Of a stretch of 49,264 nucleotides of DNA, positions 16,116-49,184 are shown piece by piece (within the stretch, counting starts at the first letter, position 1; the number at the start of each line of letters is the position of its first letter). The notes beneath the pieces were generated by a model. The model did not search any database and was not told where the DNA came from. It saw only the letters and a list, made by a program, of their open reading frames with translations. The stretch is from Bacteroidetes bacterium GWF2_40_14. Lineage in GTDB: Bacteria > Bacteroidota > Bacteroidia > Bacteroidales > UBA932. The position numbers were made by a program, and so were the translations under genes. The stretch covers positions 78,499 to 127,762 of the forward strand of contig MEOK01000019.1 of assembly GCA_001769195.1 (NCBI GenBank). The letters run 5' to 3'.

Positions 16116-17204
16116 TTATTTTATCGCTTTTGCCTTACAGCTGTCGCTGCATTTGTTGCACTGTACACAGTCATAGTTTGAGAGTGAAGAGACCTTGTTC
16201 TTCCTGTCTATCACAATTGCCTGGGTAGGGCAGACCTTCTGACAGGCCCCGCAATGAATACAGCTTGCATTGTCTATACGGCGCTGTTTTACCGAGAAAA
16301 ACGAGAACACTCCCAGCAACACCCCGTAAGGGCACATGAACCTGCAGAAAGGTCTCGGGAACCAGTAGCCAATTATCATCATCACAAGCAGATAACCCCA
16401 GGCGAAAAGGCCGAACGACCACAGTAGCTTGGCCTCCATGGGCTGACCTGCAATGAATGCCACCAGCTGCTCGAACCAGCTCTTTCCAATGAAGAACACA
16501 GCCTTGTACGGCTCCAGCTCACAGGCCAGGAAATAGCTTGATTTGAGTGCGAAGTATATTGTGCCCACAAGCAGTGCAATAGGGAAAATCTTGATTATGG
16601 TATTAAGTTTCTGCGGTATTTTTACCAGCTTCTTCTTTTTCTGGAAAAGATGCTGCATTGCCCCGAGTGGGCATCCGGATGTACAGAACACCCTTCCGGC
16701 AATAAGCGCCACAATGAGAGGCGACAGGAAGACAACAAGAGTAACCAGCCCCACCATCCTCGGGCTGACCATGCCCATTGTCACATTGGTTATCACTCCG
16801 ACGGGGCAGATACATCCACCACGGATAATACCGAGGTATGCCAGTGCAATTATCGCAAGCATGCTGAGCATCCATGAAGCCTTCCTCTTAATGACGAAGA
16901 ACACCCCTACAAGCATTATCACTATTAGCACAGCCATATCCACGAACACCATGTACTCGGGAGTAGGGTTGTACTGTATTGGAACATAATTTTCACGGAA
17001 CTCAGCCACGTTTCCGTTGGGATCTATCTCCTTTACACAATTGGGGTCATTGGCATCCTGAACTGCCTGATTGGTCTGTTGTGCCTGCTGCTGAGTCTGA
17101 TCCTCCTGGGCTGTTGCCATGCAGCTCACAGCTGCTGCTGCGGGAGAGCTAAGTGATAGCGTTGCAATTATAATAGCGGTAAAAAACTTCAATATTGATT
17201 TCAT
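16116..17204 (-). CDS. NapH/NosR-like membrane Fe-S protein
   Basis: A 362-residue polytopic inner-membrane protein. Residues 1-25 are a signal or first helix, and the periplasmic stretch (about 27-80) has Cys28 and Cys56. About five helices follow with three cysteine-proline turns: C131-x-C-P-V-G, C174-x3-C-P-L-G and C287-x3-C-P-Y-G. The C-terminal cytoplasmic ferredoxin domain has C315-x2-C-x2-C-x3-C-P and C346-x2-C-x2-C-x3-C. NapH, NosR and CcoG relatives move electrons across the membrane between quinol or flavin and periplasmic partners. The extra C-x-C-P-V-G turn in the second helix is unlike NapH. It follows the exported ferredoxin gene by 12 bp. Electron donor and acceptor unknown. 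Confidence 0.85.
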   Translation of the reverse strand: MKSILKFFTAIIIATLSLSSPAAAAVSCMATAQEDQTQQQAQQTNQAVQDANDPNCVKEIDPNGNVAEFRENYVPIQYNPTPEYMVFVDMAVLIVIMLVGVFFVIKRKASWMLSMLAIIALAYLGIIRGGCICPVGVITNVTMGMVSPRMVGLVTLVVFLSPLIVALIAGRVFCTSGCPLGAMQHLFQKKKKLVKIPQKLNTIIKIFPIALLVGTIYFALKSSYFLACELEPYKAVFFIGKSWFEQLVAFIAGQPMEAKLLWSFGLFAWGYLLVMMIIGYWFPRPFCRFMCPYGVLLGVFSFFSVKQRRIDNASCIHCGACQKVCPTQAIVIDRKNKVSSLSNYDCVQCNKCSDSCKAKAIK

Positions 17205-17216
17205 CCTTTCATCGTG

Positions 17217-17819
17217 TTAAATGTATTCTCCACCATTCTCAAGACTGTATTCGCCCTTGAAGTCATCCTCCGGGCCAATGTACACCCTGTCAATTGCCTT
17301 CTGGGGACACTTAGCAGCAATGTTGCAGCTGTTGCAAGCAAGGCAGAGGTCTGGGCGAATGATAAGGAACATAGATCGTGTACCTTTTTCATTGCAGTTC
17401 TTGACACACTTTCCGCATGCGGTGCAGAGCTTGTCATCGATTTTATAGATGAAAGAACCGTCCTGACCACCCGAGTAGTTCTGACGTTTAACGGCGTCGT
17501 ATTTGCAAACCTTTATCCCTTCGGTCATTATCTTGTCCGACTCGATATCCTTGTTGCTTATGTGTCCGTAGCATACAACACAATAAGAACACTTCTTCTG
17601 GTCGTTCACGGCCTTCACTGCCGACGGGTTTCGCACACATGCCGTCTCGCAGATACCGCAACCGTTGCACTTCTCAGGGTCTATTGCCCATACATACCTT
17701 GTCAGCGGGCCGGCCTCCTCGGGATTGAGTTGCTTGCTCACTATCCGGTAGGCAACACCGCCAATGGCGATTGCACATGTTGCCCTTCCGAAATTCACCA
17801 GAAACTTACGTCTGTCCAT
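17217..17819 (-). CDS. Exported four-cluster ferredoxin (Tat-type signal)
   Basis: A 200-residue Fe-S protein. The N-terminus M-D-R-R-K-F-L-V-N-F-G followed by a hydrophobic stretch (about 13-28) resembles a Tat signal or signal anchor. Four [4Fe-4S] motifs are visible: C51-C61; C77, C80 and C83 with a distant C105; C132-C142; and C159, C162 and C165 with C171. This NapG/NrfC-like pattern suits a periplasmic electron carrier that docks on the NapH-like membrane protein encoded next. No catalytic molybdopterin or nitrite reductase subunit is nearby. It lies 18 bp after the PhnD-like gene. Confidence 0.88.
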   Translation of the reverse strand: MDRRKFLVNFGRATCAIAIGGVAYRIVSKQLNPEEAGPLTRYVWAIDPEKCNGCGICETACVRNPSAVKAVNDQKKCSYCVVCYGHISNKDIESDKIMTEGIKVCKYDAVKRQNYSGGQDGSFIYKIDDKLCTACGKCVKNCNEKGTRSMFLIIRPDLCLACNSCNIAAKCPQKAIDRVYIGPEDDFKGEYSLENGGEYI

Positions 17820-17837
17820 TACTATATAATTTTTTTA

Positions 17838-18770
17838 TTACTTTTTATCTTTTACAAACGGAACTGGAGCCCATTTTGCAGGCATTACAAACCCCTTTCC
17901 CAACAAACCCTTTGGAGCATTTTCTCCGGAAATCGCAATAAGAGCGTTCTGCAGACGGAGAGCGTCTGACTCGCTTACCTTTGCCATATCCAGAATAACC
18001 GAACATAAAGGTATCTCTTCTGTCTGCCCTATGACCCTGAAATCCTCAGGCTTTGCAAAATCAACGGCACAGCTGGCAGTAAGTGCATAATCGGATATTA
18101 TTGCAACATCGGCAAGGTTATCGGAGAGGGTATTGATGCACTCTGTGCAGCTTGCCTTGTTGATGACCTCACCAGGCTCTATGCCCTCTTTTTTAAACAT
18201 TGCAAATGGAGCGTGGTATTTTTCGTAGGAATCAGGCTGTCCGGCAACAAGTGTCTTTCCGTCAATATCCTTCAGACTCTTTAAAGGGGAGTCTTGCTTT
18301 ACGATTATTTTTCCTGTGAGCCATTGGTTGCCAGAAGGGTCAAGCAAATCTGCAACACGTTTGTATTTGATATCAGTGTCTGGAGTGATCATGAATGCCA
18401 GCCAGGGCTTGCAAATTACTCCGTCAAATTTACGGGCAACAAGCGAATCATTCAGCTCATACTCCTCCATGAAATAGCTAATCTGCAGGTCGATGTTGAA
18501 TTTAGACTTTAGAGTGTCCTGCAGCTCTTCATACTCTCTGGCTGCAAGATCGTGGATGCATGAGCAGGCTGTGAGCTTGCAGTATGTTTCGCTGACGGCT
18601 ATACGGAGGGTCAACATTGAGTCATTCGCAGAAGCGATGGTTCCGGTTGCAGGTTCAAATGCGGTTTCGTCATATTGACCTGCTGTCACAATATGATTAT
18701 TGCAGCCTGCAAAAAAAGTGCAGACTGCAACAATAATAAGGATTCCTTTTATTAAGGCTGATGTTTTCAA
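17838..18770 (-). CDS. Cysteine-rich PhnD/SsuA-type substrate-binding lipoprotein
   Basis: A 310-residue predicted lipoprotein, with lipobox F-A-G-C at Cys23. The body has the two-lobed periplasmic binding fold of the PhnD/transferrin type, including S-L-K-D-I-D-G-K-T-L-V-A-G-Q-P-D-S and A-D-V-A-I-I-S-D-Y-A-L. Unusually it has many cysteines: C64-x4-C69-x-C71 right after the first strand, C120, the pair C208-x2-C211, C234 and C256. No ABC permease or ATPase gene is near, so it is unlikely to serve uptake in the usual way. It may bind a metal, cofactor or oxyanion for the Fe-S proteins encoded beside it. Ligand unknown. Confidence 0.8.
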   Translation of the reverse strand: MKTSALIKGILIIVAVCTFFAGCNNHIVTAGQYDETAFEPATGTIASANDSMLTLRIAVSETYCKLTACSCIHDLAAREYEELQDTLKSKFNIDLQISYFMEEYELNDSLVARKFDGVICKPWLAFMITPDTDIKYKRVADLLDPSGNQWLTGKIIVKQDSPLKSLKDIDGKTLVAGQPDSYEKYHAPFAMFKKEGIEPGEVINKASCTECINTLSDNLADVAIISDYALTASCAVDFAKPEDFRVIGQTEEIPLCSVILDMAKVSESDALRLQNALIAISGENAPKGLLGKGFVMPAKWAPVPFVKDKK

Positions 18771-18780
18771 ATTCCTGATG

Positions 18781-20370
18781 TTATTTTGTTGGTATACACT
18801 TTACAAGACCACCTGTCTTAGATGCAAGGTATACGTTGTCTTTAGTGTCAACTGCCATTGGTATATATGCACAACCTTTAACCAGTTCCTCAATTCCCTC
18901 TACTTTCTTCGCTCCCTCCTTGCTGTATACTTTTATGCGAGTAGGGTCCTTCTCAACTGTTACTATACCGCCGTTTGAAAGGAATGCTACGCTTACAGGG
19001 TTGCAGCAACCGTGGAAATCATCGATTCCGTTTCCGCGTTGACCAAATGAGATGGTTGGCTTGCCTGAATAATCAAATCCGTTAACCCTGAATGCACCCA
19101 GGTTGGCAACCAGAATTTCATTGTTGCGTATGCTGAAATCCAGAATTCCGCAGCATGTACGTAATTTTTCAATTGCAGATGTTTTCTCCCCTGTTTCTGC
19201 ATTGTAAATTGCAATCATCCTGGTTCTTGTGTCTGCAACCATGATTTTGCCTTCAGCAACTCTTGCACCTGTCGCGCTAATGATGTCAGCAAGCTTAAGT
19301 TCTCTTACTATTACACCTTTAGCATTGAATACCACGCACTCAACGCCTACAGGAGCATCAATCTCTGAAGTTTTTCCTCTTGCTTCAACTTTCTTTTTGC
19401 CCATTACTGTGCCGAAAACATAGATGTTGTCGCTCTTGTCAACGGCAATTGCAGAAGCTTTGGATGTCATTTTTGTCTTGAATTCACTTACTTTGGTACC
19501 CTTTGCATCAATAATACGGACACTACCGTCACTCTTGAGGGCACATATATTGTCATTTGACAGAATTGAAAGATAGATAACCTCCTGATGGTCCTTGCCA
19601 GCAAAAGCGGCATCTACCATATAGGCCAAATCATGAGCATTGGTGATTAATGAGTCAATACCAACTTCTGTTTTTTTCATCTCCTCTGTCTGCTGACGCA
19701 TTTTTGTAACTCTTGCAGTAGCAGCAATTTTAGGATCAAGCATGCTTATGTATCTCTCAATTTCAGTTGCACTTTTACCAGATGTCAACTGACCTACCAA
19801 TATTGCTGAATAATATGATTTTGGATTCTCCTTTATGAAATTTTCAGAAAGTTGTCTTGATTCCTCCTGATACCGTTTAATAATTTCAGTGATTTCTGCT
19901 TCGCGCTCTGGAGTAGCTTTAAGTGAGTCTACTCTTTGATAGAGCTCTTTCTGAAGTTCTTCAAGATTATATTTTTCATATAGTTCCTTAGTTTTATTTT
20001 TAAGGATATTTGCATCATCCTGTGTCTTTCCACCTGTGAAAATTGCATTATTCAATGAATCCACATGTCCTGTGACAGTCATTTCTGCATTTTCTGCATA
20101 GAAATAAGTCATGCTTCTTTTTCCTTCAATCATAAGATAGTACAAAGAAGGTTCAGCAATAGTGTCTTTAAACGCAAACTTGCCATTTTCAATAATTGCA
20201 GTATCTGCAGGGGTTTCCCTGTTTTCAATAGACATAAGAATGGCTTTACCATCTGTAATGCCTTCCAGGGTTCCAGTTAAACTAAAGCTTTTAGGTTCAT
20301 TTTTGCAGGCAGTTAAGGCTCCAATCAAGAGCGTAATAGCTGCACAACGTAAGAATAATGTTGGTTTCAT
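18781..20370 (-). CDS. DUF4369 plus NHL-type beta-propeller lipoprotein with paired cysteines
   Basis: A 529-residue lipoprotein, with lipobox L-T-A-C at Cys22. Residues about 27-115 match DUF4369 (G-T-L-E-G-I-T-D-G-K-A-I-L, D-T-A-I-I-E-N-G-K-F-A-F), a domain often fused to TlpA-like thioredoxins. A helical linker (120-250) follows, then a six-bladed NHL-like propeller (about 260-528) with repeated V-x-D-x-x-D-N-I-Y-V units. In place of thioredoxin there are vicinal cysteines C406-C407 (R-T-C-C-G-I-L) and C455-C456 (H-G-C-C-N-P-V), plus C500 and C525. It is the first gene of the five-gene unit. I infer metal or Fe-S binding or a redox partner; not shown. Confidence 0.82.
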   Translation of the reverse strand: MKPTLFLRCAAITLLIGALTACKNEPKSFSLTGTLEGITDGKAILMSIENRETPADTAIIENGKFAFKDTIAEPSLYYLMIEGKRSMTYFYAENAEMTVTGHVDSLNNAIFTGGKTQDDANILKNKTKELYEKYNLEELQKELYQRVDSLKATPEREAEITEIIKRYQEESRQLSENFIKENPKSYYSAILVGQLTSGKSATEIERYISMLDPKIAATARVTKMRQQTEEMKKTEVGIDSLITNAHDLAYMVDAAFAGKDHQEVIYLSILSNDNICALKSDGSVRIIDAKGTKVSEFKTKMTSKASAIAVDKSDNIYVFGTVMGKKKVEARGKTSEIDAPVGVECVVFNAKGVIVRELKLADIISATGARVAEGKIMVADTRTRMIAIYNAETGEKTSAIEKLRTCCGILDFSIRNNEILVANLGAFRVNGFDYSGKPTISFGQRGNGIDDFHGCCNPVSVAFLSNGGIVTVEKDPTRIKVYSKEGAKKVEGIEELVKGCAYIPMAVDTKDNVYLASKTGGLVKCIPTK

Positions 20371-31966: not shown

Positions 31967-32341
31967 ATGAAAAAATTATTCTTAATCTTGTTATTTATAA
32001 CAGAATTCATGATTGTTGGAAAAGCCTGTGATATCAAACTGGTTGTTACCGGAGAAAAAAAAGATACTTACAAAGCAGAAGATGTCATAGTTATTAATGT
32101 GACAGTAACATATATCCACCGGATATGTGAACTTGAGCTCTCTGATACCAGAATAACATGTACCGGAATGAAAATTGTTGACGCAACCGAGTGGAAAGAG
32201 ACTCAACCCGGGACATTTACAAAGGATTTAAAGGTAAGGTTATTGCAGGATGGCAATCCCGATGCATCATTGAAAATTATCAGAAAATGCAGTGCTGATG
32301 GAGGAATCGGATTATTAAAGATTAAAAAGTCGGATAAATGA
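31967..32341 (+). CDS. Small exported four-cysteine protein
   Basis: I place the start at the ATG at 31967 because it opens a normal signal peptide (M-K-K-L-F-L-I-L-L-F-I-T). A longer frame from 31904 adds unlikely basic sequence. The 124-residue product has a predicted cleavage near residue 20 and a beta-rich mature part with Cys21, Cys54, Cys65 and Cys108, which could form two disulfides or bind a cluster. I do not recognise the family. Its TGA overlaps the ATG of the following outer-membrane barrel gene (ATGA), so the two are translationally coupled. It begins the unit that encodes the ten-cluster polyferredoxin. Confidence 0.72.
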   Translation: MKKLFLILLFITEFMIVGKACDIKLVVTGEKKDTYKAEDVIVINVTVTYIHRICELELSDTRITCTGMKIVDATEWKETQPGTFTKDLKVRLLQDGNPDASLKIIRKCSADGGIGLLKIKKSDK

Positions 32342-33504
32342 AGAAGAGGATACTCATCTTTGTCTTGATTTTGTTTTCAATCTCAGATTTGTCTGCACAA
32401 TGGGAGTGCCCAAGTCTTCTGGGTGCCTCACTTAAACCAATAGGAAAAAGCAAAATTTTCTGGGGTTCGGAAATTACCGCAGGTGCAGGCTATCTTAATA
32501 ATAATGCCATTTTCAACAGTATGGGATTAATAGGCCTGGACAGGTCAGGTAAAAAGTGGACCATTTATGCAGAAGGCGGATATAAATTTTGGGATATTTA
32601 TGATTTGGACACCAAGCAGAATTTAAAAAACTTTCATTTAGGCATAAGGGAGCTGCTGTTCCAATACAAGAGCAGGTACGGTAAGTTTACAGCCGGAATC
32701 CAGTCAGCAAGGCTGGATGATTATTTTCTTCTTAATGAAAGGATTCTGGGATTGAATTATAAGTATTCCAGTGGTTCCTGGTCCTTGAATTTTACAGGAG
32801 GTACAGTAATGAAGGCCTTTGCAAGAAACGGCACTTTCTGTGCTGTTGGTTACCTCTACGACATTGTGCCGGGAAGGGAGATAGCCTTACTTGGCAACAA
32901 ACCGGGGCAGACCAACCTTGTTGCGGCAACACTTAAATTCTCTCCTTTAAGGTTTATTGATCATGCCGGTCTTGCTCTCTATTATGAATTTGGCTCGTGG
33001 GTGGAAAAGCCACTTTTTACAGGAGGGCTCTTTGCCAGTTTTGCTTTGCCCGGAGGTATATCTTTTAATCCGGAAATCCTATACCAGTCAGCCAATGACA
33101 ATAATGCAATTATATATCTTCTTTCACTGGAAAAACTTATCACCGGAGAAAAATTAAGAACAACCATCAATATGCGTTATTCCGGCTTTTCACCGCTGGA
33201 TGAAAGTGCGAAAATTCTGAACTCTTTCAGTAATATGTTTGCAGGGAATGTTTTACGACTAGATTCGGGCGACTTGCCTTTTATTCAGACAAGTCTGAAA
33301 TTCTCGGTACCACCTGTAAGGACACATTTAAAAATACAGTATACAGCACAAACAAGAAAAAATGCCATGCAGGAATTCGATGTGGAGCTGGGGAAGAAAT
33401 TTAAGAAGCATCTTCAGATTAATGCAGTAGGAGCCATGGTTAAAAGCCCTCTGTTGGAAAAACGGGCAATTCTTGGACGGATAGAATTCCGATTTTATTT
33501 TTAA
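32338..33504 (+). CDS. Predicted outer-membrane beta-barrel protein
   Basis: A 388-residue protein with a signal peptide (1-21, ending L-S-A-Q). The mature part alternates short amphipathic strands rich in Gly and aromatic residues (A-G-A-G-Y-L, Y-A-E-G-G-Y-K-F, L-A-L-Y-Y-E-F-G-S-W). It ends in R-I-E-F-R-F-Y-F, a classic C-terminal aromatic barrel signature. I do not recognise a named family. It is coupled to the small cysteine protein gene (4-bp overlap) and lies 20 bp before the polyferredoxin gene. That context suggests it may form a conduit or docking site for the Fe-S protein. Inference only. Confidence 0.72.
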   Translation: MKKRILIFVLILFSISDLSAQWECPSLLGASLKPIGKSKIFWGSEITAGAGYLNNNAIFNSMGLIGLDRSGKKWTIYAEGGYKFWDIYDLDTKQNLKNFHLGIRELLFQYKSRYGKFTAGIQSARLDDYFLLNERILGLNYKYSSGSWSLNFTGGTVMKAFARNGTFCAVGYLYDIVPGREIALLGNKPGQTNLVAATLKFSPLRFIDHAGLALYYEFGSWVEKPLFTGGLFASFALPGGISFNPEILYQSANDNNAIIYLLSLEKLITGEKLRTTINMRYSGFSPLDESAKILNSFSNMFAGNVLRLDSGDLPFIQTSLKFSVPPVRTHLKIQYTAQTRKNAMQEFDVELGKKFKKHLQINAVGAMVKSPLLEKRAILGRIEFRFYF

Positions 33505-33524
33505 ACCTCATACATTTCAGCAAA

Positions 33525-34538
33525 ATGAAACTGAATACATATCAGCGGCGTGAATTTCTGATCAGGGCCCTCCAGGGAACCGCATTACTGTTGACGGCAC
33601 CTGTGCTGAATGCATGCAAAGATGATTGGTTGTATGCATCTTACAAAGTGATCCAGACCGACTGCAACGGTTGCGGAAAATGCCTGATAGTTTGTTCTTA
33701 TAAGGCTATAATTCTCCCTAATCTCAGTCGTTACTCAATAATAAAGACAAAGTGTACAGATTGCGGTATCTGCAAATATGCATGCAAGGAGAATGCGATA
33801 AGTATTTCGACAACAGATTACATGATCAAGTCTTCTTTATGCACAAAGTGCGGAAAGTGTATTCCGGTATGTGCACCGGGTTCAATAAAACTTCCTACAG
33901 GATCGCTCAAATATTCAATTACAAGTTCATGTGTGGGATGCGGAAAATGTGTAGATGCATGTTTTTCACAGGGAAAGGCAATCTCCTATACAGTTTCTGG
34001 TTACTCTATAGTGACATCTAAGTGCCACGGTTGTGTGGAAAGATGTGCGTCGGTTTGCACCGACAATGCAATAACCAAGGTAAACGGCAAAGCAAGTATT
34101 AACACCAGCAAATGCACTAAGTGCGGGAAATGCCTGCCAAGGTGCAACTACGCAGCCATAACCAGGTCTGCAGTAGAGCTTATTCAGAGCAAGTGTACAC
34201 AATGCGATAAATGTTACTTGATCTGTAAATATAACGGGATAAAGAAAGAGGGTGCATTGTCAGGTACCGATCCGCATATAGAGCAATCAGAATGTACCCG
34301 ATGTGGCAAGTGTCTGCCGGTTTGTCCGGAGGATGCCATTTATAAAGTATTACCTGCTTCATATTCTGATCCTGTGATAAATACTTCGTTATGTAATAGT
34401 TGCGGGATTTGCGCCCCTCTTTGCCCACAAAATGCAATTGATGCTGAGATATACAAGGCAGAAATTGATCAAAAAAAATGCTACAGATGTGGAAAATGTG
34501 AGGATATTTGTCCATTGGATGCAATAGAGAATAGTTGA
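33525..34538 (+). CDS. Exported polyferredoxin with ten 4Fe-4S motifs
   Basis: A 337-residue protein. The N-terminus Q-R-R-E-F-L followed by a hydrophobic stretch is a Tat signal. It ends in L-N-A-C with Cys31, a plausible though imperfect lipobox, followed by K-D-D. Ten cysteine motifs repeat about every 30 residues, starting at residues 47, 77, 106, 136, 167, 197, 224, 257, 290 and 319. Nine are C-x2-C-x2-C-x3-C. The fifth is C-x2-C-x3-C-x3-C. Ten clusters would make a long electron wire. No catalytic subunit is fused. It lies between an outer-membrane barrel gene and a YfcC-family carrier gene. Partners and redox role unknown. Confidence 0.93.
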   Translation: MKLNTYQRREFLIRALQGTALLLTAPVLNACKDDWLYASYKVIQTDCNGCGKCLIVCSYKAIILPNLSRYSIIKTKCTDCGICKYACKENAISISTTDYMIKSSLCTKCGKCIPVCAPGSIKLPTGSLKYSITSSCVGCGKCVDACFSQGKAISYTVSGYSIVTSKCHGCVERCASVCTDNAITKVNGKASINTSKCTKCGKCLPRCNYAAITRSAVELIQSKCTQCDKCYLICKYNGIKKEGALSGTDPHIEQSECTRCGKCLPVCPEDAIYKVLPASYSDPVINTSLCNSCGICAPLCPQNAIDAEIYKAEIDQKKCYRCGKCEDICPLDAIENS

Positions 34539-34546
34539 AGCAAAAT

Positions 34547-36139
34547 ATGAAGAAATTTAAAATTCCACACACTTTCGTAATCATTTTTGCGCTGATAGTG
34601 ATCAGTGCACTTGTGACATTTTTTGTTCCCGGGGGAGAGTATGTAAAAAAAAGTGTTGTAGAGAATGGGACAGAGATTAAGACTGTAGAATTCAAATATG
34701 TGGAAAACCAACCTCAGAGCTGGCAGATACTGTCTGCTTTCTATTCGGGATTTACCAGACAAGCCGGAATAATTGTTTTTATACTGGTTATTGGAGCGAC
34801 ATTCTGGGTAGTGAATTCCTGCAAGGCTATAGATGCTGGTATTTTTTCTTTCCTCCGGTTTACTAAAAAACTGGAAAACAACAGGATGCTCAGACGAATT
34901 GGCGTCAATAACATTGTAATTATATTGATAATGACTATGTTCAGTCTTTTCGGGGCAATATTTGGAATGAGTGAGGAGACAATAGCCTTCACCATTATCC
35001 TGATACCTCTTGCTATATCCATGGGTTACGACTCCATTGTGGGAATCTCAATGGTTTATGTTGCCGCTCATGTCGGTTTTGCAGGCGCAATACTGAACCC
35101 ATTCACTATAGGAATTGCGCAGAGTATAGCCGGATTGCCACTCTTCTCGGGAATAGAGTATCGTTTCTTCTGCTGGCTGGTTCTGACTACCGTCACTATT
35201 ATCATTGTTTTAATTTACGCAAACAGAGTAAAGAAGAATCCCAGGAAATCCTCATTGTTCAACGAAGATTCATACTGGAGAGAAAAGAACAGCGGGCGCT
35301 CGGAAATTATTGAATACTATACTCCAAAATCATCATGGATTAGTTATTACATAACTCTTGCTGCATTGATATGTTTCTCAATATTTTATCCGCATACAAC
35401 TGTTAAAATTGGAAACAGTTCTGCCGATATTCCGTTTTTAATTCCGGCCCTGACAGCTCTTTTTGCAATTTTTGGATATTTGGCTCTTAAAAAATCGATG
35501 CACTTCTATGTTCTGACGCTACTCTTTTTTACAATAATCTTCCTTATAACAGGTGTTATGGGGTATAGCTGGTACATCTCGGAAATTTCTGCACTGTTTC
35601 TGGCTCTGGGTATACTAAGTGGAATTGCAGCCGATTATAGCTCGAATGAGATTGTAGCCAAATTGACAGAGGGAGCAAAGGATATCCTCTCTGCTGCTCT
35701 GGTCGTAGGTCTAGCCGCCGGTATTGTTGTCATCCTGCAAGAGGGAAAGGTTATAGATACATTGCTCTATAAGATGTCGCTGGCTATGAATGAGGCAGGA
35801 AAAGTAAGTTCCCTTGGACTAATGTATGCAATTCAGACAATGATAAATATTGTGATTCCCTCTGCCAGTGCAAAGGCAGCCATAACAATGCCAATAATGG
35901 CTCCATTCTCTGATCTTATTGGTGTATCTCGACAGGCGACAGTTCTTGCTTTTCAGTTTGGTGACGGTTTTACCAATATGATAACTCCGACATCAGGCGT
36001 GTTGATAGCTGTTCTGGCAATCGGGCGTGTGCCTTATGGCAAGTGGTTTAAACTGATACTGCCATTTATCCTTTTTCTCACTATTCTTGGGTTCCTTCTG
36101 CTGTTGCCTACGATATTCATGAATCTGAACGGTTTCTAG
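34547..36139 (+). CDS. YfcC/DcuC-like (ArcD-related) anion or amino-acid carrier
   Basis: I use the ATG at 34547, 8 bp after the polyferredoxin stop; an alternative TTG at 34535 overlaps that stop. The protein of 530 residues has about 12-13 helices and the family's P-G-G-E-Y start, an E-E-T-I-A-F-T-I-I-L segment, repeated hydrophobic V-V-A-A or G-F-T-N-M-I-T-P-T-S-G-V-L motifs, and P-S-A-S-A-K-A-A-I-T-M-P-I-M-A-P-F-S-D-L. Members move C4-dicarboxylates, arginine/ornithine or similar metabolites. Substrate unknown. It ends tail-to-tail with the S41 protease gene, sharing the CTAG. Confidence 0.86.
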   Translation: MKKFKIPHTFVIIFALIVISALVTFFVPGGEYVKKSVVENGTEIKTVEFKYVENQPQSWQILSAFYSGFTRQAGIIVFILVIGATFWVVNSCKAIDAGIFSFLRFTKKLENNRMLRRIGVNNIVIILIMTMFSLFGAIFGMSEETIAFTIILIPLAISMGYDSIVGISMVYVAAHVGFAGAILNPFTIGIAQSIAGLPLFSGIEYRFFCWLVLTTVTIIIVLIYANRVKKNPRKSSLFNEDSYWREKNSGRSEIIEYYTPKSSWISYYITLAALICFSIFYPHTTVKIGNSSADIPFLIPALTALFAIFGYLALKKSMHFYVLTLLFFTIIFLITGVMGYSWYISEISALFLALGILSGIAADYSSNEIVAKLTEGAKDILSAALVVGLAAGIVVILQEGKVIDTLLYKMSLAMNEAGKVSSLGLMYAIQTMINIVIPSASAKAAITMPIMAPFSDLIGVSRQATVLAFQFGDGFTNMITPTSGVLIAVLAIGRVPYGKWFKLILPFILFLTILGFLLLLPTIFMNLNGF

Positions 36140-42002: not shown

Positions 42003-42035
42003 TTTGACAAATATATGGTTTTTTGGCTAAATTTG
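42003..42035 (+). promoter_or_regulatory. Promoter of the DUF486 gene
   Basis: TTTG (42003-42006), 21 bp, then TAAATTTG (42028-42035): both boxes of the Bacteroidota consensus, leaving a leader of about 30 bases. Overlapping it on the other strand, CAAATATA at 42008-42015 gives a -7 match for the M49 peptidase gene. Confidence 0.65.
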
Positions 42036-42071
42036 CCCGACCTATCTTTCTGTCAAATTATAATTTATATT

Positions 42072-42437
42072 ATGCAAGGTATTTATACAATTCTACTGTT
42101 GGTAGTAGCTAACATTTTTATGACTTTTGCTTGGTATGGACATCTAAAGTTACAAGAAATGGGAAAAATATCAACTTTACCATTAATAATTGTAATACTA
42201 TTTTCTTGGTTTTTGGCTCTTTTTGAGTACATATTTCAAGTACCTGCTAATAGAATAGGTTATATAGGAAATGGTGGATCATTTTCATTAATGCAACTTA
42301 AAATCATTCAAGAGATCATTACATTAATAGTATTTTCAGTTTTTTCTTTTCTAGTATTTAAAGTACAAATTCAATGGAATCATTTTGCTGCTTTCATTTG
42401 TCTAATACTAGCAGTATATTTTGTATTTATGAAATAA
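42072..42437 (+). CDS. DMT-like DUF486 membrane protein
   Basis: A 121-residue four-helix protein with the conserved DUF486 sequence: N-I-F-M-T-F-A-W-Y-G-H-L-K near the start, then F-E-Y-I-F-Q-V-P-A-N-R-I-G-Y and L-K-I-I-Q-E-I-I-T-L. The start at 42072 is preferred over 42015, because the longer version reads through the promoter. Function unknown, probably a small transporter-like protein. Base composition is more AT-rich than the genes to the left. Confidence 0.85.
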   Translation: MQGIYTILLLVVANIFMTFAWYGHLKLQEMGKISTLPLIIVILFSWFLALFEYIFQVPANRIGYIGNGGSFSLMQLKIIQEIITLIVFSVFSFLVFKVQIQWNHFAAFICLILAVYFVFMK

Positions 42438-42895
42438 GGAATACTTCTTTTGATAGGTAATAAAGGTTGTATAGTTTGTGCTCATCTCAATACTTTAATG
42501 ATAGTATTAAGTTAGGTTCGCCGAACTTAGATTATCTGTTAAAGGTTCTACAAAGGTACAAATTTTGTTTGGAATAAATTGCTTAATTACAGAATATCAA
42601 CATACTATGAATGGGGATCAATCTAAAGCCAAATTCTTCCCATTACAGGAGAGCGAATTTTAAATTTCGGGTTTTAGATATACTTGTAGAGAGGGGATTT
42701 TGGGAAACTGGTTGTATCTGGTTGGTATATATAAGGAATTTATATCCCCTTAAGTTCAGATTTAAAATTGATATGAAATCTGCAAATGCTTTATTTTATA
42801 TACGGGGCGCTATGCAGTTAAGACTCCAGGTCGATGAATTAGGTCAACAATTTAGAAAGTCTTTGTAAAGAGTGCCATCAGAAGGAACATAATTC
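42438..42895. other. Accessory-junction stretch with hairpins and an unassigned 85-codon frame
   Basis: No gene can be assigned with confidence. Two adjacent inverted repeats are visible: AATACT/AGTATT (42489-42494 and 42503-42508) and TAAGTT/AACTTA (42508-42513 and 42524-42529). An open frame from 42611 to 42868 (plus, 85 codons) has unusual basic and aromatic content and resembles nothing I recognise. It may be chance or a remnant. Confidence 0.4.
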
Positions 42896-43900
42896 TTAAA
42901 GGTATATTATCTCCTCTTGGTTTTTACAGTCACGAAATGTTAAATTATTCTTGCTTTCCTTACTAAATACTGTATCTGTAAATGAATTAATATCATAAAA
43001 ATTTGCTGTATTTATGAAATTTGCACTATGAAAATTACACTGAGTCAAATAAACTGTATGAGCATAGAAATTTTCAAGATTTGCTAGATCAAAACTTACT
43101 TCGTTCATTATATTCTCAAAGAAAGTTACATTATCCATTTCCGACCCCCAAAATTGACAATTTTCCATAATAGTAGTACCTATACCAAATCTACTATCTT
43201 TTATTACGGTAAGTTCGAAATTGCAATTGATAAGATTGCATTTGAAATTACAGCTATAAAATAAAGATGAATCAAAGGAACAGTCTTTTATATCACCTTT
43301 AAAGGTTATGTATTTAAAATAAGTACTAGAAAAATCTAATTTTTCTCCTATAAATATACTGTCTTTATTAATTAATAGATCGAGGATTGTTTTTACTATT
43401 ATTGGAACATTTCTAATAGCTAAAAGATTTGTATTGTTTTTTCTACTAGTTTCTATTTTAGTATATAATAATTCAGAATGTTCTTGTAAAAATTTGGTAA
43501 ACAATCCTGCAACAATTGATTTATATCTACAATCTTCTTTTGCTAGTTGATATAAAGCATAGATACCACCTAAAATAATAGATGTTTTATCACTCCCTAA
43601 ATAACCTATCGCATCACTAAATCTTTGATCTGAATTACTATTCTCCGAAATGCAATTTTGACGATTCTGCTCTTTGATCCTTTGGCTATTTATCCATAAC
43701 CCATAAATAAGTCCTATACCACCTAGAACAGATAATATTACTTTGAAAAATTCTCCATTCGGATTATCCTTACTAAAATTCAGAGCTATATCTGAATAAA
43801 AGTAAAAAAATCCACTAATAAGGATTAATAGGATTAATGACCCGATAATAACCCATACTTTGTAATCATTCCAGAATTTCTTTAATTTTTCCATTTTCAT
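42896..43900 (-). CDS. Membrane protein with pentapeptide-repeat-like C-terminus
   Basis: A 334-residue protein with two N-terminal helices (about 15-36 and 52-70). A short region R-F-S-D-A-I-G-Y-L-G-S-D-K-T-S-I-I-L-G-G-I-Y-A-L-Y follows, commonly found before pentapeptide repeats. The C-terminal half (about 185-325) has a five-residue rhythm with F or L at the centre (C-N-F-K-C, N-C-N-F, S-R-F). Such proteins are frequent in accessory regions, and their function is unclear. It is the first minus-strand gene of the AT-rich stretch. Confidence 0.75.
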   Translation of the reverse strand: MKMEKLKKFWNDYKVWVIIGSLILLILISGFFYFYSDIALNFSKDNPNGEFFKVILSVLGGIGLIYGLWINSQRIKEQNRQNCISENSNSDQRFSDAIGYLGSDKTSIILGGIYALYQLAKEDCRYKSIVAGLFTKFLQEHSELLYTKIETSRKNNTNLLAIRNVPIIVKTILDLLINKDSIFIGEKLDFSSTYFKYITFKGDIKDCSFDSSLFYSCNFKCNLINCNFELTVIKDSRFGIGTTIMENCQFWGSEMDNVTFFENIMNEVSFDLANLENFYAHTVYLTQCNFHSANFINTANFYDINSFTDTVFSKESKNNLTFRDCKNQEEIIYL

Positions 43901-44240
43901 AGATTTAGGTATACAAAAGTATAATAAAAACTTTGGATTATTCTGTTAAATGTCAAAACAATAACCGTAAGTTTTAATAAAATTCTTTTTTGGATATTCA
44001 AATTTTATTCATCTGTGATGTGGAAAGATGTATAAAAAAGAAGATAGTGTTTGATGTAGGTGTTAAAAAAATAATTTTTTAGATTTAAATTAAAATAGTA
44101 TTTATATTCAGATATTTATAAATAAATTTGAAGAGAATAAAACTTTCTGAAAACATAATAGATAATCTGGGGCTTTGTTGCCTTAAACGACTATTCTCAA
44201 TTTCAAATCAGCGATAAAACATTATAATATTGTTAGCAAA
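43901..44240. other. Gene-free stretch with one -7 element and a possible IS-end relic
   Basis: CAAAAGTA at 43914-43921 is TACTTTTG on the minus strand, a -7 match for the pentapeptide-like gene. GGGGCTTTGTTGCC at 44169-44182 resembles the terminal bases seen in some transposon families, but no second end or transposase is present. Nothing else is visible. Confidence 0.3.
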
Positions 44241-45373
44241 ATGGGACAAATGAAACAATACCAACAGGATTTTGATTGTGCTGAAGATGCTTTATCTGAG
44301 CTGATTACAATTCTAAAATCAAATCTTTTTAATGGGTTTTTAACTTATAGCGGCCTTAAAATAAATTTAAGATTGTATGAAGATTTTATTACCGAACTTT
44401 TTAAAAATTTAACTCTTTCAAGACAGGTTGTAGATATTAGACTTTTGAATTTTATTCATAATATTATCATACCGATATATTTGGAAATTAAGGAATTAAC
44501 TAATTTAGAAAAGAGCTTAAGCTTCAAATTAAAAGTAATAACGATTTTAAAAAAACTTGATACAGCTAAAAATGATTATTATACTTTTTGTCCAGAGGAT
44601 ATAAATAAAAAAGTAGTAAATTCTGCGGCTTATTACAATTCAAGACTTCAAGAATTAAAGAATTAAAGAATAAAGAAGCTGAATTATCAACTGTTATAAA
44701 AAAAACAAAAAATGAATCAGAGGAAGAAATACTAAAAGCTAAAAAAGAGTCTGAAGAAGCAAAAGCTACAATAATAAAATATGAGAAGGAGCTTGAAAGA
44801 ATAAGTAAACAGAAAGATGCAGAGGAAAATTCGAAGAAAAATATTGAAGACACTTTTGATGAATTAAAGAAATATCTTCAACCTATTAGATCAGAAAAAT
44901 TAAGATTAAGGTGTCTTTTTTGGGCCTATTTAATTTCTTCTTTATTGATTGTTATATTGATATTTATCATAGAAATTGTTGCAGTAGCCAAAGTATTTTC
45001 AATATCTGGATTTCCAAGTTTCAAAGAGTACCTTACTATATATTTACCACTGCCCGTTGCGGGAGCTTTACTTTGGGGTTTTATATACCAGATGAATAGA
45101 GCACAACGACAACTAATTGTATTAGCTAAAAGTATTCATAAAGTTGAGTATATTCAAGGGTTACTATTATCAATTAATAAATTAGCTCCAACAATTGATG
45201 ATGGAATAACTAGAATAAATCTTGCTTTAGATAAATTGATAAATAATTACTTCAATGAAAAGGAGTGTAATTCAGAAGAAGATATTATTAGAGAGGAAAA
45301 AAAAGACCTTGTTCCAGTTGATTCATTCATAAAATTACTGAGAGAAATTAAAGGAGTAGTTAGTAAAGAATAA
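44241..45373 (+). pseudogene. Coiled-coil two-helix membrane protein gene split by an 8-bp tandem duplication
   Basis: The first frame (44241-44666) encodes 141 residues, starts M-G-Q-M-K-Q-Y-Q-Q-D-F-D and ends in a TAA. Directly downstream another frame runs on to 45373 without a start codon of its own: a long charged coiled coil, then two membrane helices and an acidic tail. The junction is AAGAATTA repeated exactly at 44650-44657 and 44658-44665. Removing one copy restores a single open frame of 374 residues. The unit length (8) is not a multiple of three, so copy number toggles the frame. Function unknown; coiled-coil membrane proteins of this kind are common in defence-type regions. Confidence 0.8.
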
Positions 45374-45424
45374 TTCTTCTTTCTAGGCATTATCCAATAA
45401 TTGAGAAATCTATAATTTAAAAAG

Positions 45425-45456
45425 GGTTCTGTACTTAATTGTGCAGAACCTTTTTT
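45425..45456 (+). terminator. GGTTC hairpin A, terminator-like
   Basis: GGTTCTGTAC (45425-45434) and GTGCAGAACC (45441-45450) form a 10-bp stem with one G-T wobble and a TTAATT loop, followed by six T. It lies 51 bp after the broken coiled-coil gene and is nearly identical to hairpin B at 46679. Confidence 0.8.
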
Positions 45457-45460
45457 GTAA

Positions 45461-45622
45461 ATTTTATTAATTTCTTATAAGAGTGGATTAACAGAGTATA
45501 AAGATGCTCAATTAAGTGTTGATGTTTCAGGTAATAGCAATCGTTTATTGAGAGATAATTTCTATAACTTAGGTATATATCTTAATATATCAACATTTTC
45601 TATGTTGGTTGTAGGATATTGA
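45461..45622 (+). pseudogene. Possible startless coding remnant
   Basis: An open frame of about 53 codons without any start codon near its 5' end reads like real protein (V-S-G-N-S-N-R-L-L-R-D-N-F-Y-N-L-G-I-Y-L) and ends in TGA at 45620-45622. It may be the tail of a deleted membrane protein gene. Chance cannot be excluded. Confidence 0.25.
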
Positions 45623-45645
45623 GTATTCAATAAATTTTATAAAAT

Positions 45646-45981
45646 ATGAATAAAATTTCTGAAGCAATTATTCTGAGTGCAAACCTCTCTTCTATGTTCT
45701 TATCGGTTTTTCAACCAACTGCTCTTCTTTTAAGAATAATGATTATTCTTGGGTCATTGGGTTTATCATTCTTTTTCCTATCAAAAAAGAGAAGGATGTC
45801 TTATAAAATTCGATTATATATTAAAATATCGAAATTGATAAAAAATGGACATAGCTTTTTAAATCAACTTGAACAGAAGCATATTTATCATAAATACATT
45901 AATCGAATAATTGTCTGTATACAATATGTTGTTAGATATAAGGAAATTATATATAACTTTATTAAAAGAATTATTTATTGA
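45646..45981 (+). CDS. Small hypothetical membrane protein
   Basis: A 111-residue protein with two adjacent hydrophobic helices (about 8-25 and 28-47), then K-K-R-R and a basic, tyrosine-rich helical tail. No family is recognised. It lies 15 bp before the next gene on the same strand. Its AT-rich codon use matches its neighbours in the accessory stretch. Confidence 0.55.
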   Translation: MNKISEAIILSANLSSMFLSVFQPTALLLRIMIILGSLGLSFFFLSKKRRMSYKIRLYIKISKLIKNGHSFLNQLEQKHIYHKYINRIIVCIQYVVRYKEIIYNFIKRIIY

Positions 45982-45996
45982 TTAAATATTTATATT

Positions 45997-46656
45997 ATGT
46001 GGCTATTTATAATAATTTGTATTGTTGTTGGCATAATTATTATGCTTGTTTCCGATTCTATAAAATCAAATGAAGCAAAGAAAGAACTTCTTGAGATAAA
46101 AAATTCTTATGCTAAAAATATTTTAGAAGCTGATCAAAAATATTCTTTGGAATATGGTGTAATAACAAAATCATTTCATAAAGAATTCAATGAAATTGAA
46201 TCCATAAGAGTATTTGAGGAGTCTGAAACCATAGTGATTATGGATGTACCCTACAAATTTGTCGATATCATTTCAGTAGAATTATATGATGACTCTAAAA
46301 TAATAATTACAAACTCTGTCACAAAAACGTCTACTGGAAGTATGATAGGTAGAGCAGTCGTTGGTGGTGCATTAATAGGGGGTGTTGGTGCGGTAATTGG
46401 TGGAGTTTCGGCAAAACAGAATACAGTTGCAACTCAAGAAACAAGCCATCATTACTGTATGTATATAACAATTAATAATTTGACGAATCCATTAATATCG
46501 TTTGTTTTTAAAGGAGGAGTAGTAGAATTGGACAATACTAAAGAATCTGGCATCGAAACCTATTGGCCTATTCCGTATGAAAAAATTATGAGCGTCGTAT
46601 CAATGATATCGGTAATCATTGAAAGAAATAAAAGATTGCAAAAGGATATAATTTAA
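45997..46656 (+). CDS. Hypothetical membrane-anchored protein with glycine-zipper segment
   Basis: A 219-residue protein with an N-terminal helix (1-20), then a short coiled region and a compact beta-rich part. A glycine-zipper-like stretch follows, S-T-G-S-M-I-G-R-A-V-V-G-G-A-L-I-G-G-V-G (about 112-131), continuing A-V-I-G-G-V-S-A-K-Q. This segment is seen in small proteins of phages and mobile elements and may insert into membranes. Function not known. It is followed by hairpin B. Confidence 0.62.
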   Translation: MWLFIIICIVVGIIIMLVSDSIKSNEAKKELLEIKNSYAKNILEADQKYSLEYGVITKSFHKEFNEIESIRVFEESETIVIMDVPYKFVDIISVELYDDSKIIITNSVTKTSTGSMIGRAVVGGALIGGVGAVIGGVSAKQNTVATQETSHHYCMYITINNLTNPLISFVFKGGVVELDNTKESGIETYWPIPYEKIMSVVSMISVIIERNKRLQKDII

Positions 46657-46678
46657 CATATGACTAATGTAACTTGAA

Positions 46679-46710
46679 GGTTCTGTACTTAATTGTGCAT
46701 AACCTTTTTT
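46679..46710 (+). terminator. GGTTC hairpin B, terminator-like
   Basis: GGTTCTGTAC (46679-46688) and GTGCATAACC (46695-46704) form a 10-bp stem with one mismatch and the same TTAATT loop as hairpin A, followed by six T. It ends the transcript of the gene at 45997-46656. Confidence 0.78.
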
Positions 46711-46725
46711 ATATAAATCATTGTT

Positions 46726-47091
46726 TTAAGTAATACTGAAGGTTGATAATCGACCTATGTTTCCTTCAACAAATTTTTTTTGGGGATATGCTAATCTGCA
46801 TAACTCTTTAAATATGAATCTGTAACAATCACCAGACCTAAATAATGTTATATTTTGATTTTTAATTTCATCAAAAATAATTATTCTATTTTTATCCAAA
46901 GTATCCCATAAAATATTAAGCTCAGTTCTAGTGATGTTTTTAGATTGAGTTTCTGATATTTTATATTTTAAAACATCTTCATTTTTTCTATTAGTCCCAA
47001 AACAAGTTAAGGTGAATTCAGTATTTCTACTTGTTTTATGTAATACAGTACCAATCTTTAGTTTTTTGCATAAATCAAAAAAATCTTCCAT
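46726..47091 (-). CDS. Small hypothetical soluble protein
   Basis: A 121-residue protein without signal or membrane helix, with alternating beta and helical segments (F-R-S-G-D-C-Y-R-F-I-F-K-E-L-C-R-L). No family recognised. It is transcribed against its neighbours. Its own -7 element TATATTTG (47113-47106 on the minus strand) lies 15 bp upstream. Confidence 0.55.
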   Translation of the reverse strand: MEDFFDLCKKLKIGTVLHKTSRNTEFTLTCFGTNRKNEDVLKYKISETQSKNITRTELNILWDTLDKNRIIIFDEIKNQNITLFRSGDCYRFIFKELCRLAYPQKKFVEGNIGRLSTFSIT

Positions 47092-47105
47092 AACTATTTT
47101 TTATT

Positions 47106-47113
47106 CAAATATA
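47106..47113 (-). promoter_or_regulatory. -7 element for the gene at 46726-47091
   Basis: CAAATATA on the plus strand is TATATTTG on the minus strand, an exact consensus match 15 bp before the ATG at 47091. Confidence 0.45.
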
Positions 47114-47122
47114 GGAAATTAT

Positions 47123-47153
47123 AAGGTTCAGTAATTATATGCGAACCTTTTTT
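47123..47153 (+). repeat. GGTTC hairpin C (third copy, divergent)
   Basis: AAGGTTC (47123-47129) pairs with GAACCTT (47143-47149) across a 13-base loop, with six T at 47148-47153. It resembles hairpins A and B in arm sequence, but no plus-strand gene ends before it: it lies between a divergent pair, upstream of the gene at 47237. Confidence 0.6.
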
Positions 47154-47236
47154 AATCGAATAACTTGTTGATAAATAGTTATTGGTGATCAGATATTTAT
47201 GTTTAATTTTATAGCATACTTAAAATTTGTATTTTT

Positions 47237-48151
47237 ATGAAAACCGTATTTTACCTGATAACTCTTATAATTATTATTAGCTGTAGGAATGCAGAAGCTG
47301 ATAAATATGATAAGTACCTAACCTATAAATGGGGTAATGATAGTTTAGTAGTAATAGAAAATGGATTTTTTCATTCCAAAACTCATTACGATAGTATTTT
47401 AAATAAAATGGTTGGAGATACATTAATTCCAATAAAAAGGATTGATTCGATGTTAATAATTACTCAAATAGTGGCAAAAGGTAAATGGGAATTAATAGAT
47501 GATAGACATATTTTTTTCCCATCATCTGACACTTTGATAACAGATACAGTTCTTTTCAAATTCAGAAATTTATTTGGCTCAAAACTTTTTTTGTTCAATA
47601 AAAAGGGGGAATATTTACAATTCTATACATTGCTTGAAAAGCAAAATGATGTTATTCTTGAAAATTTTGATGATAGAATAAAATTTGAAATAAAAGGTTT
47701 CACAATAGGGGACACAATAAGCCGCGAACTAGTAGAAATTGAAGATATACATAATTATGAAACATATACAATTGAAAAATCTGTTTTAAAATCAAATAAA
47801 AATATAGAAATAGATATAATTGGAGATAGTATCATTTATAGTATTGCACAAAGAGAAATTAGTGATTCAGAGGCTGATGACATAAAACTAGTTGTAAAGA
47901 ACAAATTGTCATCAGAACCAGAATATATACCTAAAGATATAAAAGATGATTATGAATTTGAGTACTATTATTGGAATAAATTTGAAATTACAATCCAATT
48001 ACAGAAAATGACTTATAAAGGGAATAACTTTTACAGTCTTTTAAACACTAAGGTAAATAATTGGGCACTATATTATAGTGACAGATTTATAGAAAATATA
48101 TTAATTAATGAATTTAAAAATAAAACTCCTAAATCATTAATAGTAAAATAA
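47237..48151 (+). CDS. Hypothetical lipoprotein
   Basis: A 304-residue predicted lipoprotein. The signal M-K-T-V-F-Y-L-I-T-L-I-I-I-I-S-C has the lipidated Cys at residue 16. The rest is beta-rich with repeated D/E-I-x-I and I-x-F patterns and has no recognised domain. Near its start W-G-N-D-S-L-V-V-I-E-N-G-F-F and G-K-W-E-L-I-D-D-R resemble small extracytoplasmic beta-sheet lipoproteins. It is AT-rich like its neighbours. Confidence 0.6.
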   Translation: MKTVFYLITLIIIISCRNAEADKYDKYLTYKWGNDSLVVIENGFFHSKTHYDSILNKMVGDTLIPIKRIDSMLIITQIVAKGKWELIDDRHIFFPSSDTLITDTVLFKFRNLFGSKLFLFNKKGEYLQFYTLLEKQNDVILENFDDRIKFEIKGFTIGDTISRELVEIEDIHNYETYTIEKSVLKSNKNIEIDIIGDSIIYSIAQREISDSEADDIKLVVKNKLSSEPEYIPKDIKDDYEFEYYYWNKFEITIQLQKMTYKGNNFYSLLNTKVNNWALYYSDRFIENILINEFKNKTPKSLIVK

Positions 48152-48204
48152 GTATATTATAAAAAAAAGTGCCACGAATTACTTTTTAAATATGGACAAT
48201 TTTG

Positions 48205-49184
48205 ATGGAATTATTTATTAAAAATATAGCAAGATATAACTATAACATACGTATTAATTTGAGTAACAGTTATACAAAACAAATTTATCTTCACAAAGAC
48301 GTATTTGGTATAGAAATTCCGTTTGAATTTGAAGGAGTAATTGGAAAAATTACTTTCCCAAATATACTTTTAGATTCAGATTTTGATCCAAAGAAACGAT
48401 TCAAGGATATCTATTATTCAGATGATAACAAACATATAGTAGGAAGTTTCCTTTCATCAAATTTATTCTATATAGATCACCTAAGGTGCTATATTACATC
48501 ACTAGATAAGTTAGATAAAACATTCATTACTAAATTAAACAGTAGAATTGATTTAGTTTCACAAATAATTGAAAACTATAAATTTGGTATTTTTAGAGTA
48601 AGAAAAACTTTGAATTCTATCACTCCTAGAGTTGATTGTGATATGATAGATCAGCACTCTCTAGAAAGATATTATGCAACAAAATGTGTGTCAGATGAAA
48701 TTACATTAATAAATCAAGGATTTTCTAAGCGGATGCTTACAACCATTCTGGGTTATTCTAAAAAAGAATTTGAATTTGAATTTAAACACACTTTACTAAT
48801 AGAAGCAAGAGATCATTTAGATTTGAAAAAGTATCGGCATTGTATTATAAATTGTTGCACTATAGTTGAGATTCTTATGTCAGAGCAGATAACTTTAAAA
48901 TTAACTAAGAATGGTGCTAAAGAAGGAGATGTTGAAATTATACTTAAAAGTATATCTGGGATTGATGCACTAGTAAAAGTAGCTAAAAATTTAGGTGTGA
49001 ATTTTCCGAATAATTTCAATTCTCCAAGAGGATTTGATTATCAAAAACTAGCACACAATTAAGAAATCGTTCTGCACATAGAGGTATTGCTCCATCATAT
49101 GATGACTGTATTAAGTATATTCAAGGGATTAAGAAATTATTAATGTTTTATAGAATAAAATTTATTAAAGTATTAGGAGAATAA
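48205..49184 (+). pseudogene. HEPN-like protein gene with a frameshift before the R-x4-H motif
   Basis: From the ATG at 48205 the frame runs 285 residues and stops at 49060-49062. The shifted frame directly beyond it encodes T-Q-L-R-N-R-S-A-H-R-G-I-A-P-S-Y-D-D and stops at 49182-49184. R-N-R-S-A-H is an R-x4-H motif of HEPN RNase domains, preceded by the helical part (about 195-280) expected of such a domain. Adding one base near 49053 rejoins the frames into 326 residues. HEPN proteins act in toxin-antitoxin and abortive-infection defence. A sequencing error at this point is possible. Confidence 0.7.

Follow-up and report, generated by a model that had tools for sequence, protein, structure and literature searches.

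What does the locus at positions 31,967 to 36,139 of a 49,264-nucleotide stretch of the Bacteroidetes bacterium GWF2_40_14 genome (GenBank assembly GCA_001769195.1, contig MEOK01000019.1; the whole stretch is hereinafter called the window) do, and could it serve to pass electrons to or through the outer membrane by means of iron-sulfur (Fe-S) clusters? The locus consists of four genes, all on the + strand, which overlap or are separated by 20 bases at most and encode a small exported Ig-like protein, a predicted outer-membrane barrel, a polyferredoxin and a DcuC/YfcC-type carrier. A previous inspection of the letters (hereinafter, the sequence-only reading), which proposed that the barrel and the polyferredoxin form an electron conduit, gave the coordinates and the shared direction of these open reading frames (ORFs) correctly. 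To our knowledge, the described electron conduits of Gram-negative outer membranes use multihaem cytochromes, and a literature search over titles and the starts of abstracts found no Fe-S outer-membrane system of this sort. The conduit reading of the four-gene locus is partly supported by the present analysis; the likeliest explanation, which we consider an even call, is that the locus represents a dedicated Fe-S electron-transfer module, fed by a NapH-type protein, that would connect the outer membrane to the quinone pool.

The barrel, the small protein and the polyferredoxin belong together, and their association is real. Among 247 genomes of the order (173 genera, own genome included), searched with the barrel of the window as the query, the barrel was detected in 15 genomes from 13 genera. 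A long polyferredoxin (E ≤ 1e-30, among the best eight candidates per genome) was found in seven of the 247, all seven being barrel genomes, with the two genes on separate contigs in one of these (G077). The profile of the small protein was detected in 21 genomes, which cover all 15 with a barrel; of the other six, one (G084) has part of a barrel where a contig ends, and in five no barrel was detected. The sequence-only reading had suggested examining co-occurrence, and in this sample its expectation was borne out. The probability of drawing such overlaps at random, about 6e-10 for the polyferredoxin and about 1e-19 for the small protein, is too small a figure because the genomes share ancestry. 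The barrel count comes from a single barrel sequence, and a later profile added the G084 fragment as a sixteenth genome; no long polyferredoxin was found in G084, which is 77% complete. The short two-cluster polyferredoxins of G197 and G169 were missed by the polyferredoxin profile. The system is sparsely distributed: in a sample of 395 genomes of the phylum (best four and best five candidates in the two scans), the barrel and a long polyferredoxin were each detected in the own genome only, as was the barrel among 99 genomes of the own family. A scan of species genomes yielded 26 named loci, mostly titled Bacteroidales, Marinilabiliales or Bacteroidetes bacterium, with one Lutibacter and one Neomarinimicrobiota among them.

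In the mapped loci (designated by L numbers), a recurrent gene order was observed, namely, the small protein, a NapH-like inner-membrane 4Fe-4S protein, the barrel and, in part of the loci, the Tat lipoprotein ferredoxin. A tree of 29 barrels contains one branch, with 100/100 support, that parts 12 barrels with a polyferredoxin (PF+) from 14 with no polyferredoxin gene seen beside them (PF-); the remaining three (L049, L074 and L079) were left unlabelled because of an incomplete genome or a contig end, and two broken or cut barrels (L076 and L081) were left out of the tree. The PF- label applies genome-wide, with no polyferredoxin at E ≤ 1e-15, only to G049, G053, G076 and G174. Given this single branch, the side of the barrel family to which the window belongs is tied to the polyferredoxin, and the family as a whole is not. 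The situation that the sequence-only reading named as a refutation, a barrel mostly without the polyferredoxin, applies to one separate clade only. The clade lacking the polyferredoxin provides a natural control.

The polyferredoxin (33,525 to 34,538, + strand) is a protein of 337 amino acids with 41 cysteines, that is, four in each of ten cluster motifs (CX2CX2CX3C in nine cases, CX2CX3CX3C in the one at residue 167) plus Cys31 of a lipobox. The ten motifs and the Tat-type signal of the sequence-only reading are both confirmed. The motifs probably each bind a [4Fe-4S] cluster; Pfam Fer4 matches the protein at E 6.7e-43, with nine stretches passing individually. A recount with a motif looser than the CX2CX2CX3C used for the locus maps gave ten motifs in the window, L057, L058 and L060, the polyferredoxins of the latter three being 52 to 54% identical to that of the window, and 13 to 19 in L044, L059, L066, L072, L078 and L101. 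No CXXCH was present in any of the 12 polyferredoxins scanned, including the one in the window. The best match in the PDB is MvhB (E 6.5e-21); membership in the MvhB or FwdF families was rejected because the scores fall far below the NCBIfam cut-offs (77 vs 600 bits for Vhu_polyferre and 71.6 vs 375 for FwdF). Both MvhB and FwdF are cytoplasmic.

The N-terminus, RREFLIRAL...LNAC followed by KDDW, looks like a Tat-type signal (RREFL) that ends in a lipobox, with the Cys31 codon, the start of the predicted mature protein, at 33,615 to 33,617 (+ strand). Given such a signal, the polyferredoxin should be an exported lipoprotein, a point absent from the sequence-only reading. By eye, the twin-arginine motif, the hydrophobic stretch and the lipobox cysteine are all present in the window, in 10 relatives and in L101, and the lipobox was seen in all 12 polyferredoxins inspected. 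The residues that follow resemble signals for surface export. In PMC5080379, the optimum in Capnocytophaga is given as C-X-K-(D/E)2-X, and the signal of B. fragilis has a polar residue followed by acids, mainly at +3 and +4. The C-K-D-D-W of the window has its acids at +3 and +4, as in B. fragilis, one place before the C. canimorsus optimum; the corresponding residues are C-Q-E-E-W in L058, C-R-K-E-D-S in L059 and C-K-K-E-D-L in L101. An adjacent pair of acids at +2 to +6 is present in 6 of 11 polyferredoxins vs 1 of 19 other lipobox-like ORFs (Fisher p 0.004); the count leaves out L057, a near-copy of L058. The 26 lipobox-like ORFs listed by a script, seven of them polyferredoxins, were split by hand. 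This enrichment favours a location of the polyferredoxin in the outer membrane, in part of the cases at the surface. As far as sequence can show, no polyferredoxin was seen to stay at the inner membrane beside a known oxidoreductase, the other refutation named by the sequence-only reading.

The barrel (32,338 to 33,504, + strand), whose ORF overlaps that of the small protein by 4 bases, is 388 amino acids long. Searches of Pfam and NCBIfam (E ≤ 0.1) and of the PDB sequences gave no match to it. Its AlphaFold2 model (mean pLDDT 83, pTM 0.78) has 18 strands, in line with the outer-membrane barrel of the sequence-only reading, and matches the AlgE/OprD-type fold, a match of the predicted model and not a membership by sequence; identity to AlgE and OprD (Occ) barrels is 7 to 16% in the rows shown, with no family match. 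Given the predicted 18 strands and the AlgE/OprD-like shape, a ferredoxin wire inside the barrel is unlikely, and the modelled barrel looks too narrow to sheath one. Two cysteines, Cys24 and Cys168, are conserved in the family.

In 9 of the 12 PF+ loci, the gene immediately upstream of the barrel is NapH-like. Of the other three, L060 starts at the edge of its contig, and no NapH is found at this position in the window or in G077. PF12801 was matched in all five operon-type NapH proteins scanned, and the scanned proteins contain two Fer4_5 stretches and ferredoxin motifs; no FMN-binding domain was detected in the five. According to PMC8238504, NapH-like proteins are considered to shuttle electrons between a quinol and a range of extracytosolic partners. 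An acidic DEF motif, frequently several in succession, is present in most of the NapH-like proteins from these loci. It lies between a seemingly cleavable signal and the first membrane helix, which would make this region periplasmic. The same motif recurs in the barrels, within a single insert. At least two DEF motifs were counted in 44 of 420 ORFs from 35 loci, namely, 23 barrels, 17 NapH proteins and four others, including one NapH fragment. Among 25 aligned barrels, the first DEF maps after residue 205 of the window barrel in all 23 that have the motif; the barrel of the window, which lacks any DEF, and the cut L079 are the other two. The insert site is the turn at residues 202 to 206 (codons 32,941 to 32,955, + strand), between strands 8 and 9 of the model, on the short-turn side shared with the N-terminus and opposite the long loops. 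In porins, the side of the N-terminus and the short turns is periplasmic, and the DEF insert of the barrel is likewise predicted to face the periplasm. The motif would thus be offered into the periplasm from both membranes, which suggests a shared partner. The small-protein precursors, with a net positive charge in all 18 tested, are candidates for this role. Reduction of the system appears correlated, given that the window has neither an operon NapH nor a DEF motif in its barrel and that the NapH proteins of its near relatives L057 and L058 are devoid of DEF, of which their barrels have two (L057) and one (L058).

The candidate partner itself, the small exported Ig-like protein (31,967 to 32,341, + strand; predicted mature form with an N-terminal cysteine), has cysteines at positions 21, 54, 65 and 108, which agrees with the four-cysteine protein of the sequence-only reading. 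In an alignment of 18 small proteins, Cys21, Cys54, Cys108 and His51 are invariant, and Cys65 is not.

Taken as a mechanism, the electron-transfer module would operate as follows. In the relatives, the NapH-like inner-membrane protein would, judging from its family, oxidise quinol and pass the electrons to the periplasm. The DEF repeats of the NapH N-terminal region and of the barrel turn may recruit a common partner, for which the basic Ig-like small protein is a candidate; this would bring the inner-membrane and outer-membrane components together. After export by the Tat route, the polyferredoxin would sit next to the barrel, held in the outer membrane by its lipid anchor and most likely exposed at the surface, from where it would hand electrons to an outside or surface acceptor. 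The window copy keeps what would be the outer-membrane half (small protein, barrel and polyferredoxin) and, lacking the operon NapH and the DEF insert, must draw on another electron source. The gene content, the motifs, the co-occurrence and the split of the barrel tree are observed directly; the barrel fold and the side of the DEF insert are predictions, and we infer cluster occupancy, surface exposure, docking, the direction of electron flow, the acceptor and conduction. The bolder version of this scheme, a cytochrome-free Fe-S conduit across the outer membrane comprising the NapH-like protein, the Ig-like adaptor on the DEF repeats, the 18-strand two-cysteine barrel and a surface polyferredoxin with up to about 19 motifs as the outer terminal, we consider unlikely.

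Several observations weigh against an electron-transfer role at the outer membrane. The predicted 18-strand fold offers no evident electron path across the membrane, 14 mapped barrels have no neighbouring polyferredoxin, and none of the genes in the mapped loci could be recognised as a terminal reductase. The polyferredoxins of L045 and L056 (genomes G169 and G197) have only two cluster motifs in the looser recount. The acidic pair is missing from 5 of the 11 polyferredoxins, and the KDD of the window stands directly at the cysteine, a shifted position that, according to PMC5080379, was exported less well in C. canimorsus than X-KDD. In many barrels, one of the DEF motifs counted lies outside the insert, at residue 216, where the site is conserved, and the conserved cysteines and histidine of the small protein may be structural. 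The small protein and NapH are found in one region of G052, G063, G065 and G138, without a detectable barrel or long polyferredoxin. The operon of the window has no NapH gene, and the best match to the operon NapH in its genome, a NapH-like inner-membrane 4Fe-4S protein at 16,116 to 17,204 (- strand; E 3.2e-14), falls outside the operon-NapH clade. This protein was accordingly ruled out as an orthologue and is a possible, unproven stand-in; a 63% identical copy also occurs in a barrel-less genome of its genus.

The main alternative is a periplasmic redox hub combined with a substrate porin, in which electron transfer would end short of the outer membrane's far side: turned towards the periplasm, the polyferredoxin would feed an unlinked reductase or directly reduce a compound that enters or leaves through the AlgE/OprD-like barrel. 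By eye, no periplasmic reductase is seen repeatedly in the mapped loci, and the lipobox, together with a start that in some members resembles a surface-export signal, counts against it; we regard this explanation as somewhat unlikely. Quite unlikely, in our assessment, is a role in the uptake, export or detoxification of metal(loid)s or in Fe-S handling, with the polyferredoxin as a reductant or store and the small protein as a metal carrier. It would account for the conserved Cys/His set of the small protein, for the two conserved barrel cysteines and for a second Ig-like small protein and an ArsP_1-like permease that directly follow the Tat ferredoxin in L042 (12,815 to 14,259), L045 (7,103 to 8,578) and L060 (2,311 to 3,736), ArsP_1 having been scanned in L060 only and named by eye, without Pfam support, in L042 and L045. 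The permease is not seen by eye beside the other mapped polyferredoxins, including that of the window, and no feature of the window indicates a particular metal. That the polyferredoxin is an orphan which merely happens to adjoin a porin and a secreted protein, as the unlinked genes of G077 and the unrelated carrier might suggest, is highly improbable in view of the co-occurrence in all 7 and all 15 genomes of the 247, the single-branch split and the repeated gene order.

Other genes of the loci bear on the electron-transfer module to differing extents. The carrier (34,535 to 36,139, + strand, starting with TTG at 34,535 or ATG at 34,547) is DcuC-like (E 7.6e-95 in the family profile search); the sequence-only reading had the right kind of transporter, but the score for the YfcC family it named is below the NCBIfam cut-off (354.9 vs 500 bits). 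Its grouping with the other three genes did not hold, as a BLASTP relative was found in only 1 of 30 mapped barrel loci (L069, 7 kb from the barrel, on the opposite strand): the carrier falls outside the conserved set and is a neighbour unrelated to the system. Across the same 30 loci, BLASTP detected a TetR-like gene (named by eye, without Pfam support) in eight and an MMPL-like transporter in five, all PF- with the exception of the unlabelled L048. In L139 (G138:C49, 107 to 3,703), the neighbours of the small protein and NapH are a DUF5777 barrel, a DUF2271 protein bearing a type IX secretion tail and a lipoprotein-like protein with one CXXCH, which may form a further surface redox set; according to PMC8238504, flavinylation occurs in some DUF2271 proteins. 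L139 and the four barrel-less genomes, of which G138 is one, fit an inner-membrane core that serves varied outer-membrane redox parts. The core of small protein and NapH is not exclusive to the polyferredoxin.

Further features were noted in passing. In the NapH-like proteins of the PF- barrel clade, a cysteine pair that precedes the first membrane CX3C is lost in 15 of 15 (GGCPCM to GGPG); the L063 protein keeps one cysteine of the pair, and the NapH proteins of barrel-less genomes keep both. Genes resembling Rnf subunits, recognised by eye and without Pfam support, lie near a set of small protein, NapH and barrel without the polyferredoxin in L047 and L048 (G049 and G199). Within the window, the - strand region at 16,116 to 20,370 encodes a DUF4369/propeller lipoprotein-like protein, a PhnD-like binding protein, a Tat-type ferredoxin with several Fe-S motifs and the above NapH-like protein, which has an extra cysteine pair. 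The ORFs at 42,015 to 49,062, at the contig end, have a GC content of 25 to 31% (GC3 about 0.16 to 0.23) vs mostly 35 to 45% elsewhere, which gives this region an island-like appearance.

Should electrons indeed pass through the outer membrane in this system, it would be a new, second kind of conduit beside the haem-based ones, and electroactivity in uncultured Bacteroidales could have been overlooked, because genome surveys look for CXXCH. In the part of PMC7399161 that we consulted, Bacteroidetes are mentioned in anode communities and nothing is said on Fe-S conduits. The electron-transfer module may let some uncultured Bacteroidota pass electrons to or through the outer membrane without the usual haem proteins.

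Among known systems, the porin-cytochrome conduits (MtrCAB and Pcc) likewise pair the gene of a barrel with that of an exported multi-centre redox protein and include, as in the relatives examined here, a quinol-linked inner-membrane protein. Their MtrB-type barrel is larger, with 26 strands, whereas here the redox protein has Fe-S motifs and no CXXCH, and the predicted 18-strand, AlgE/OprD-like barrel, without a family match, is not of the MtrB type. The analogy drawn by the sequence-only reading is therefore loose, extending to the pairing of barrel and redox genes and to neither a multihaem partner nor a large barrel; for want of these two defining features, we file the locus under NapH-like electron-transfer systems. 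With the NapH-like extracytosolic systems (PMC8238504), the loci of the relatives share the PF12801 inner-membrane Fe-S protein; the differences are the barrel and polyferredoxin partners, the lack of an FMN-binding domain match in the five NapH proteins scanned and the absence of NapH from the operon of the window. Among the Pfam matches of the scanned proteins, which cover part of the neighbours, neither this domain nor ApbE was seen. NapG and the dual Sec-Tat polyferredoxins (PMC5449189) are likewise Tat-exported multi-cluster ferredoxins, with four predicted clusters vs ten here, where the protein is a predicted lipoprotein, separate from the membrane part and paired with a barrel. MvhB, FwdF and the AorA filament (PMC10413684) resemble the polyferredoxin in using serial [4Fe-4S] repeats as an electron path, but are parts of enzyme complexes, whereas here a Tat signal and a lipobox are present and no enzyme subunit was recognised in the locus. 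Finally, the AlgE and OprD (Occ) barrels differ from the barrel of the window in its conserved Cys24 and Cys168 and from those of its relatives in the DEF insert.

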